32,876 bases of DNA from Thioalkalivibrio sp. (GTDB taxonomy: Bacteria; Pseudomonadota; Gammaproteobacteria; Ectothiorhodospirales; Ectothiorhodospiraceae): contig NZ_REBW01000124.1 in NCBI RefSeq assembly GCF_007692535.1, positions 1-32,876 of the forward strand, written 5' to 3'. Numbering within the stretch: position 1 is the stretch's first letter; each line of letters opens with the position of its first letter. The translations under genes and the position numbers were made by a program. Shown piece after piece: positions 2,626-7,336 of the stretch. The notes below the pieces were generated by a model. That model saw only the letters and a program-made list of their open reading frames with translations. It was not told the DNA's origin and searched no databases.

Positions 2626-5493
<2,868 letters not shown>

Positions 5494-5542: not shown

Positions 5543-5610
5543 CTCGCGGGGGATCCTCTTGGTTTTCCGGCTTGGGGAGGAGGAGTACCGCGCCGGTGCG
5601 CTGCCTGCGG

Positions 5611-5656
5611 GACGCCGTGAATACATCCCTGTAGGCCTGACGGCAGGAACCCTGCT
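5611..5656. repeat. Structured repeat-like block near uvrA
   Basis: GCCGT (5614-5618) pairs with ACGGC (5640-5644), enclosing a TACA-TCCC-TGTA hairpin (5622-5633). It is followed by GCAGG-AAC-CCTGC (5643-5655), which competes with the outer stem. The layout and wording recall short dispersed intergenic repeats of high-GC gammaproteobacteria, but that resemblance is from memory and unverified. Confidence 0.4.
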
Positions 5657-5702
5657 GCGGGCAAAGTGAAACGACGGCCACACTTGCCCCTACGCTCTCA
5701 CT

Positions 5703-5788
5703 TATGGAGTGCGGGAGCTTGCTCCCGCTATTTCGGTGTCGGGGATACCCCAGCTCCTCACAGCGGCGGCAAGCCGCCGCACTCCATA
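5703..5788. repeat. Inverted pair of REP sequences (REPIN-like)
   Basis: The left copy (5703-5729) begins TATGGAGTGCGG and folds as GCGGGAGC-TT-GCTCCCGC. The right copy (5762-5788), read on minus, begins with the same TATGGAGTGCGG and folds as GCGGCGGC-TT-GCCGCCGC. The two differ at four positions that form two base pairs, so pairing is kept in both. The 32-nt spacer contains GGGGATACCCC. This matches the architecture of REP doublets mobilised in trans by RAYT (TnpA-REP) transposases; no such gene is in this window. Confidence 0.8.
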
Positions 5789-5968
5789 GTCGCTGCCACT
5801 TTCATCATTCGGCGTGATGTGCTCCGAGGCATGAGATTTACCGGCGGGAGGACGGCCGGCCAGCCCCGTTCGGTGCCGCCGGGCTCTTGCCAACGATCCC
5901 GCCGGCGTCCGGTTCCCTGTAAGATGCGGCACGGTTCCCCCATCGTTCCAGGATCGACCGCTTCGCCC

Positions 5969-7336
5969 ATGACGCCCTCCGAACTGCGTGCCACCTCCGG
6001 ACTCGCCGCCATCTATTCGGTGCGCATGGCGGGGCTGTTCATGGTGTTGCCGGTGTTCATGCTCTATGCCGATGTGCTGCCGGGGGCGACACCCTTTCTG
6101 ATGGGGCTTGCGCTGGGCATTTATGGCCTGACGCAGGCCCTGCTGCAGATCCCGTTCGGCATGATCTCGGATCGTGTGGGCCGCAAACCCCTGATTGCCC
6201 TGGGTCTGCTGCTGCTGATCGTGGGCAGCATCGTCGCCGCACTGGCCGAATCGGTCTACGGCATCATCCTCGGTCGCGCGTTGCAGGGCGCCGGCGCCGT
6301 GGCCGCCGTGGTCCTGGCGCTGACCGCCGACCTGATTTCCGAGGAGCGGCGTACCCGGGCCCTTGCGGTGATCGGCCTGACCATCGGCCTGACGTTCACC
6401 GCCGCCATGGTGCTCGGCCCCGTGGTGGACCGGATGTTCGGGCTGTCCGGGATCTTCTGGCTCACCGCAATTCTCGGTGGCGTCGCGCTTCTGCTGCTGT
6501 TCTTCTGGGTGCCGGTGCCCGCCCGGTGTCGGCCGCACCCGGACATGGTCCCGGTGCCGGGAGGCCTGCGGCACGCATTGCGGGAACCGGAACTGCTGCG
6601 GCTGAACGTCGGCATCTTCATCCTGCACATGACGCTGGCGGCAAATTTCCTGGTTCTGCCGCTGATGCTGGTGGAACGCCTCGAACTCGCTTCCGAATTC
6701 CATTATCAGGTCTATCTGCCGGTGCTGGTCCTGGGCTTTCTGCTGATGATCCCCGCAGTGATTTACGCGGAGCGCCGCCGTGCTCTGAAGCCGGTGCTGA
6801 TCGGTGCGATCGGGTTGTTGGTGGGCGTTCAGCTGTTGCTGCCCTTTGCTGCAACCTGGCTCCTGCTGGGGATTGCGCTGGTGCTGTTCTTCGCCGCCTT
6901 CAACCTGTTGGAGGCGGCGATGCCATCCCTGGTCGCCAAGACCGCGCCCGTCGCGGAGAAGGGGACCGCGATGGGCCTGTTCTCGACCAGTCAGTTCCTG
7001 GGCATCTTCGCGGGGGGGGTCCTGGGCGGCCTCGCCCTCACCTACGTCGGGGTTGCCGGGGTCTTCGGCCTCGGTCTCGCGGCGGCGGTCGTGTGGCTCC
7101 TCGTCGCGGCCACGATGGCGCCCCCCAGTCACCTCTCGAATCGGGCCTATGCGCTGCCGAAGCCCTGGATGGCTGCAGAAGGCGAGTTGAGCGGTCGCCT
7201 GAATGCGCTGCAGGGCGTGGCGGAAGCGCGCGTCAGTGCCCGCGAGGCGGCCGTTTACCTGAAGGTGGACCCTGCCAGCTTCGATGAGCACGCTCTGCGT
7301 GACGTGCTGATGGGGCATTCCGCGGCACGGGCCTGA
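5969..7336 (+). CDS. MFS efflux transporter, YajR type with C-terminal YAM-like domain
   Basis: This is a 455-aa major facilitator superfamily inner-membrane exporter; substrate unknown. About twelve hydrophobic segments are visible, with MFS motif A ([10 protein letters not shown], residues 64-73) between TM2 and TM3. After the last segment, roughly 60 residues ([23 protein letters not shown] onward, residues ~410-455) resemble the small ferredoxin-like YAM domain that ends E. coli YajR. I chose ATG 5969 because the conserved start ([20 protein letters not shown]) begins there; AGGATCG lies upstream. It sits between uvrA and ssb, the order known from Pseudomonas. Confidence in the MFS call is high, in the YAM call moderate. 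Confidence 0.9.

Follow-up and report, generated by a model that had tools for sequence, protein, structure and literature searches.

In this study, we find that the inverted repeat pair at positions 5703-5788 of the window, a stretch of 32,876 nucleotides that is one entire contig of a genome (3,127,315 bp in 277 contigs) from Thioalkalivibrio sp., a sulfur bacterium of salt lakes, belongs to a REPIN-like heterodimer family that is non-coding and present in many copies. The paired changes that set its two stems apart did not arise in the window doublet; they reflect two stem subtypes found throughout the family. With some confidence we favor the reading that this doublet is the hairpin core of a TA-targeting MITE of about 175-180 bp, within which the REP heterodimer is carried; the long form is probably moved by a putative IS630-like enzyme.

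The arms of the window doublet are 27 nt each, inverted and 32 nt apart. The arm of subtype A (5703..5729, plus strand) joins the head TATGGAGT to the stem GCGGGAGC-TT-GCTCCCGC, and the arm of subtype B (5762..5788, minus strand) joins the same head to GCGGCGGC-TT-GCCGCCGC; the spacer between them (5730..5761, plus strand) is, in an alignment of 45 A/B doublets, conserved in the long-form subfamily and variable elsewhere. Two neighboring base pairs distinguish the 8-bp stems (G-C to C-G and A-T to G-C), and each is altered on both sides. The first-pass annotation had described exactly this, two inverted copies with a common head and stems that differ at two compensated base pairs, and our analysis confirms it, except that the last four bases (GCGG) of the 12-nt head it proposed are already stem. 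In the REP head, TATGGAG, one could see a GTRG or GGAG tag in degenerate form; its resemblance to GTAG/GTGG is at best that of a degenerate version. With up to three mismatches allowed, the window has two matches to head plus stem, where shuffles predict 0.04; in the window alone the bare 12-mer at up to two mismatches is found five times against 2.27 expected, a number reached by 12 of 100 shuffles and not significant. The copy is situated in a 475-bp gap between uvrA (minus strand, start at 5493; NCBIfam UvrA) and a divergently oriented gene with its start at 5969, which is followed by ssb; the family that this divergent gene matches best is a multidrug-efflux superfamily model, with a score below that model's cut-off. 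Rfam gave no match at gathering score, and the window stretch matched one microRNA model at chance level.

Across the 3.13-Mb genome, a search for the exact 12-mer head gave 94 matches, 49 of them forward and 45 reverse, and none for the reversed pattern; head plus stem at up to three mismatches gave 179 (reversed pattern, 4), with stem pairing kept. A count of genome-wide copies and their pairing, which the first-pass annotation had proposed as a check, thus came out in favor of its description. From 75 stretches fetched around listed matches and the two Y1 genes of the genome we kept 152 REPs at up to three mismatches, a sample in which degenerate copies are under-counted because it was drawn from the 94 exact heads and the first 100 of the 179 head-plus-stem matches. 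By stem, 76 of these are of subtype A (GA/TC), 63 of subtype B (CG/CG) and 13 of other types. In 144 of the 152, the two variable pairs are both Watson-Crick, whereas 7 have one of them broken and 1 has both; among the 39 distinct arm sequences, 69 of 78 cells are Watson-Crick, whereas the shuffle mean was 35.6 and none of 5,000 shuffles, which leave shared ancestry in, reached the observed value. The claim of a REPIN-type inverted doublet is borne out by 61 head-outward doublets at near-constant spacing (mostly 30-36 nt, with a mode of 33 nt between 23-mers), of which 25 are AB, 20 BA, 7 AA and 1 BB, while 8 contain another type. Mixed A/B pairs thus make up 45 of the 53 typed doublets, as compared with a shuffle mean of 26.4 and maximum of 41 (0 of 20,000 shuffles reach 45). 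Thirty of the 152 REPs lie outside head-outward doublets, some because of a stretch or contig end or a degenerate partner. Since the two subtypes recur and most typed doublets are mixed, the stem difference seen in the window is the normal state of the family, and a local origin of the two paired changes is ruled out by the recurrence of the same two stems genome-wide.

The family is Thioalkalivibrio-specific among the 58 genomes searched at up to two mismatches (the host, 29 others of the genus and 28 more distant). Matches are numerous in G017 (174), the host (166), G027 (104), G014 (57), G015 (46) and G028 (32); G003, G008, G019 and G023 have 5-12 each, and the remaining genus members 0-2, among which the complete genomes G010 and G012 have one exact copy each. 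Outside the genus, 4 of the 28 genomes gave a single match each, no higher than the reversed control.

Flank comparison, together with a profile built on nine copies, the window copy among them, delineates a long form of about 175-180 bp with constant ends, which in the window runs from about 5664 to 5838; the profile itself matches 5662-5843 (model positions 9-190 of 193, 173 bits). Its A-side outer part (5664..5702, plus strand) starts AAGTGAAAC, where the family end is ACGTGAAAG, and just before it, at 5662-5663, the window has CA in place of the TA seen in the family; its B-side outer part (5789..5838, plus strand) ends CATGAGATT, where the family end is CATGAGAGT, with TA following at 5839-5840. 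The terminal inverted repeats are short and imperfect, ACGTGAAAGTCACGGCC and ACTCTCATGGCC having in common only AC and GGCC (AC...GGCC). The 95 family places divide into 13 with both outer parts, 5 with the A part only, 8 with the B part only, 58 with nothing but the core and 11 cut by the end of a stretch; about a third of the untruncated copies in the host-genome stretches therefore carry one or both constant outer parts. Exact consensus arms are seen in 35 of 39 cases in long-form places versus 80 of 113 in others. Searches of plasmids for the long form gave no match, and the three matches of the end motif in viral contigs are likely due to chance because they lie within reading frames and are without a matching second end.

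Frame and REP core are separable, because 6 of 19 GTAG-type REPIN heads have the A-end motif upstream, at a distance of at most 45 nt (host and G027 stretches; a count without control), and 4 of 78 B-part matches are without a TATGGAG REP within 80 bp, one of them (L091) adjoining a GTAG-type REPIN. Individual loci present further arrangements: at L082:237-559 a GTAG-type REPIN is nested inside an outer part of the REP long form, and at L073, from about position 429, a long form has its start at the TA in the head of a GTAG-type REP. At L141:4574-4612 (...CACGTTAACTCTCATGG...) and L363:398-442 (...CACGCTAACTGTCATGG...), long-form ends abut head to tail with one TA in common, which, judged from these junctions, looks as if long forms had inserted into each other's terminal TA.

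Empty sites were sought at three loci (L082, L075 and the window), and clean counterparts for L082 and L075 were found in G027, whose flanks are about 88-91% identical to those of the host; in the other relatives searched, the alignment stopped short of the junction. With borders marked by slashes, the filled L082 locus reads CTTA/ACGTC...GAGT/TG/GCAGGG and its empty counterpart CTTA/GCAGGG, an insertion of 323 bp that includes the GTAG-type REPIN and whose second target copy reads TG. The filled L075 locus reads CTA/ACTCTC...CACGT/TA/AATTTCTCG and its counterpart CTA/GGATTCTCG, with three neighboring bases differing between the two; here the long form measures 177 bp and has nothing nested in it. 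By length, both empty sites thus agree with a duplication of 2 bp, which reads TA/TA in one case and TA/TG in the other. For the window locus, no clean empty site was found among the relatives searched, and the left border is CA, not TA. Among 116 stretches from three genomes, where the background TA frequency is 0.015, TA stands outside the A end in 17 of 24 cases and outside the B end in 18 of 42; if one change is allowed, the B-end figure rises to 37 of 42. Where both ends of a copy were found, TA lies on the two sides in only 6 of 17. Duplication of TA together with TA ends is a hallmark of IS630-type MITEs (PMC2229807, PMC2817692). Since sister long forms were inserted with TA duplication, at least part of the family probably has a mobilizer other than a RAYT, and the whole arrival of the L075 unit argues that the frame is mobile with the REP pair inside.

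The first-pass annotation had proposed a RAYT-dependent element. A profile search, positive in 5 of 14 control genomes (E. coli included), identified two Y1_Tnp genes in the host. The one on contig C92 (178 aa) matches a REP-associated tyrosine transposase model with 199 bits; it was rejected as the cognate RAYT because its flanks carry GTAG-type REPs (GTAGGTCGGGTTAGCG...), unlike the window REP. The one on contig C182 (275 aa; G000:C182:12640-13582, L033) reaches 66 bits with the same model, below the cut-off of 80, and was likewise rejected, being bracketed by inverted GGCTTGGTCCGACCCC repeats. These have 48 genome copies at up to one mismatch (reversed control, 0), including several minus/plus pairs about 240-275 bp apart, and the arrangement resembles the TIR-flanked Y1 genes in section 16 of PMC3733652. 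In total we checked 18 Y1 genes: the host's two and all those listed in G003, G014, G015, G017, G023, G027, G016 and G018, the last two being near non-carriers, so that 16 of the 18 come from seven carrier genomes. The TATGGAGTGCGG REP at up to four mismatches was found within 1 kb of none of the 18, the nearest being at 1,102 bp, a count in which 8 of the 18 have one flank of less than about 130 nt before the contig end. In G017 and G027, the 238-aa Y1 genes have REPs 1.1-1.5 kb off and were discarded as candidates because other terminal inverted repeats flank them. In the carriers G008, G019 and G028, Y1 matches were absent from assemblies that are 58-79% complete. Dependence on a RAYT is therefore not supported by these genes: RAYT-like genes are present, and the REPs that flank them do not match. 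The first-pass annotation would have given up its reading if further copies and a RAYT gene were both lacking; as it is, copies abound and RAYT-like genes exist.

These data allow other accounts of the family to be weighed. In a classic REPIN, a cognate RAYT would recognize head and stem and move the pair as single-stranded DNA, its gene here having been lost or left unassembled between identical repeats. The inverted doublets with their modal 33-nt gap and mostly variable spacers fit this account, as does the majority of core-only copies, and the presence of several REPs at contig ends means that a REP-flanked gene could drop out of the assembly. We nevertheless think it unlikely, as the host's two Y1 genes have repeats of their own, none of the 16 Y1 genes in seven carriers (nor the two in G016 and G018) has the REP nearby, and long-form insertions come with TA duplication. 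Rather improbable, in our judgment, is an old and inert TA-flanked MITE that serves as a preferred landing site for a REP family moving by its own means. The A-end motif upstream of GTAG-type REPIN heads, in the uncontrolled count given above, and the B end next to such a REPIN at L091 agree with it, as do REP dimers inside palindromes in Anabaena and Halothiobacillus (PMC3733652, section 7); against it, the whole unit arrived at an empty TA site at two loci, at L075 with nothing nested.

A further alternative concerns the stems alone. The first-pass annotation took the compensated changes to argue that the folded stem is selected or required for mobilization; that the stem is kept paired through changes on both sides stands, and selection for folding does not stand as the sole reading, because hairpin-templated correction could also keep the pairing. 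In replication, one hairpin arm would be copied from the other, writing a change to both in one step. Compatible with such templating, the main subtypes differ at both base pairs at once, and the 152 REPs include further types in which pairing is complete (AA/TT in 2, CA/TG in 2, TG/CA in 1), but the strong A/B heterodimer preference and the fixed positions of the changes are left unexplained by it, and we regard it as a possible, if doubtful, substitute for selection.

Under the reading that we prefer, that of a TA-targeting MITE with the REP pair as its hairpin core, a TA-targeting DDE transposase of the IS630/Tc1-mariner type would move the long unit in trans as double-stranded DNA, and the REP pair would spread along with it. 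As 58 of the 84 untruncated places match the REP pair alone, many of them with exact arms, the pair probably has, or had, its own spreading route; such copies may be older, or may owe their spread to a RAYT that is unlinked, lost or unassembled. The unlike stems would let each arm fold alone, and because of them the two arms would form a less than perfect palindrome with each other; this should shield the element from nucleases that cut hairpins.

To place the family among known systems, the REPINs of Pseudomonas fluorescens (PMC3116915) offer a similar layout, consisting likewise of two inverted REPs with a hairpin-forming spacer. The GI doublets there have 71 bp between the first residues of their 16-mers, near the 72-75 found here, and compensatory changes along the hairpin are described in that work as common. 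As described in that paper, P. fluorescens doublets join identical REP types and are rarely mixed, in contrast to the predominantly mixed doublets of our family, and P. fluorescens REPs adjoin RAYT genes, whereas here no linked RAYT was found and a subset has constant outer parts and TA duplication. GTAG-tagged REPs (PMC3733652) share with ours stem subfamilies with complementary alternative residues, and section 14 of that work reports a similar preference for heterodimers in many families, for which protection from SbcCD-type cutting is suggested. They differ in that here the tag, within TATGGAG, is at best degenerate and no REPtron matches. GTAG-1 REPs are described in Thioalkalivibrio sp. 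K90mix (PMC3733652).

The IS630-type MITEs RUP and Correia/NEMIS (PMC2229807, PMC2817692) resemble the long form in being non-autonomous, about 100-200 bp long, TA-ended, hairpin-rich and accompanied by target duplication; in contrast to these, ours has a REP-heterodimer core, lies in G+C-rich DNA, has short terminal inverted repeats and has a transposase that is only putative. Dimers of GTAG-15 in Anabaena variabilis, which lie in TATAGGA...TCCTATA palindromes (PMC3733652, section 7), are likewise REP dimers within a longer TA-ended repeat; their sequences are unrelated to those here, and the passage in section 7 describes them without insertion sites or target duplication. A search of the literature for the element sequences as letters gave no match, a weak negative since most papers print such sequences in figures.

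Immediately upstream of the long form, the window contains part of a second repeat, which looks more unusual than the REP doublet. Its left inverted arm (5582..5608, plus strand) is followed by a core (5609..5661, plus strand; GGGACGCCGTGAATACATCCCTGTAGGC...) whose 3′ part is broken where the REP long form begins, and the right arm is missing in the window. The complete 58-nt core, GGGACGCCGTGAATACATCCCTGTAGGCTTGACGGCAGCATCCCTGCTGCCGACACCC, has 9-20 copies per genome in four Thioalkalivibrio genomes (28-mer at up to three mismatches; reversed control, 0) and forms the tip of a long hairpin. The two arms of this hairpin measure 18-30 nt, with a median of 26, and are almost perfect inverted repeats of one another, but their sequences are unrelated between loci (L183-L212). 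Of 32 copies taken from four genomes, 25 have such locus-specific arms directly beside the core. In a set that was partly picked by hand, 37 of 43 copies have them (random flank pairing, 11 of 2,000), with a core length of 58 in 42 of 43; as 15 loci of that set were chosen after earlier results had been seen, 25 of 32 is the less selected figure. From these sequences, insertion of the element may involve copying about 26 nt of its target in inverted orientation, or may take place at hairpin tips. At one intergenic place in four species (L198, L339, L341, L344), the arms are similar in the host and G027, with two paired changes that keep complementarity, and wholly different in G023 and G016, a pattern that looks as if arms had been replaced or the site hit repeatedly. 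Among the matches listed, the core also occurs in methanotrophs (Methylotuvimicrobium and Methylomicrobium; L216, L217, L222, L231 and others) and in other Gammaproteobacteria, many of these copies having similar arms that are not locus-specific. Literature on inverted target duplication yielded, among the matches listed, plant microRNA papers only.

Tentatively, these findings can be extended to the genus: in Thioalkalivibrio, REP pairs might be exchangeable cores of one TA-targeting miniature transposon, so that a RAYT-less REP family would be maintained by serving as hairpin core to a DDE-type MITE whose frame also carries a RAYT-linked GTAG-type REPIN. REPs are usually explained by a single enzyme, the RAYT. 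If the extension is true, they have two routes of spread, one single-stranded (Y1/RAYT) and one double-stranded (DDE), and could outlive their own RAYT. The preference of REP dimers for two different stems has been called unexplained (PMC3733652, section 14), and this family is a natural set in which to test it. A large and apparently young REP family that is without a matching RAYT and inserts in a TA-targeting unit would show that REPs can persist without a transposase of their own.
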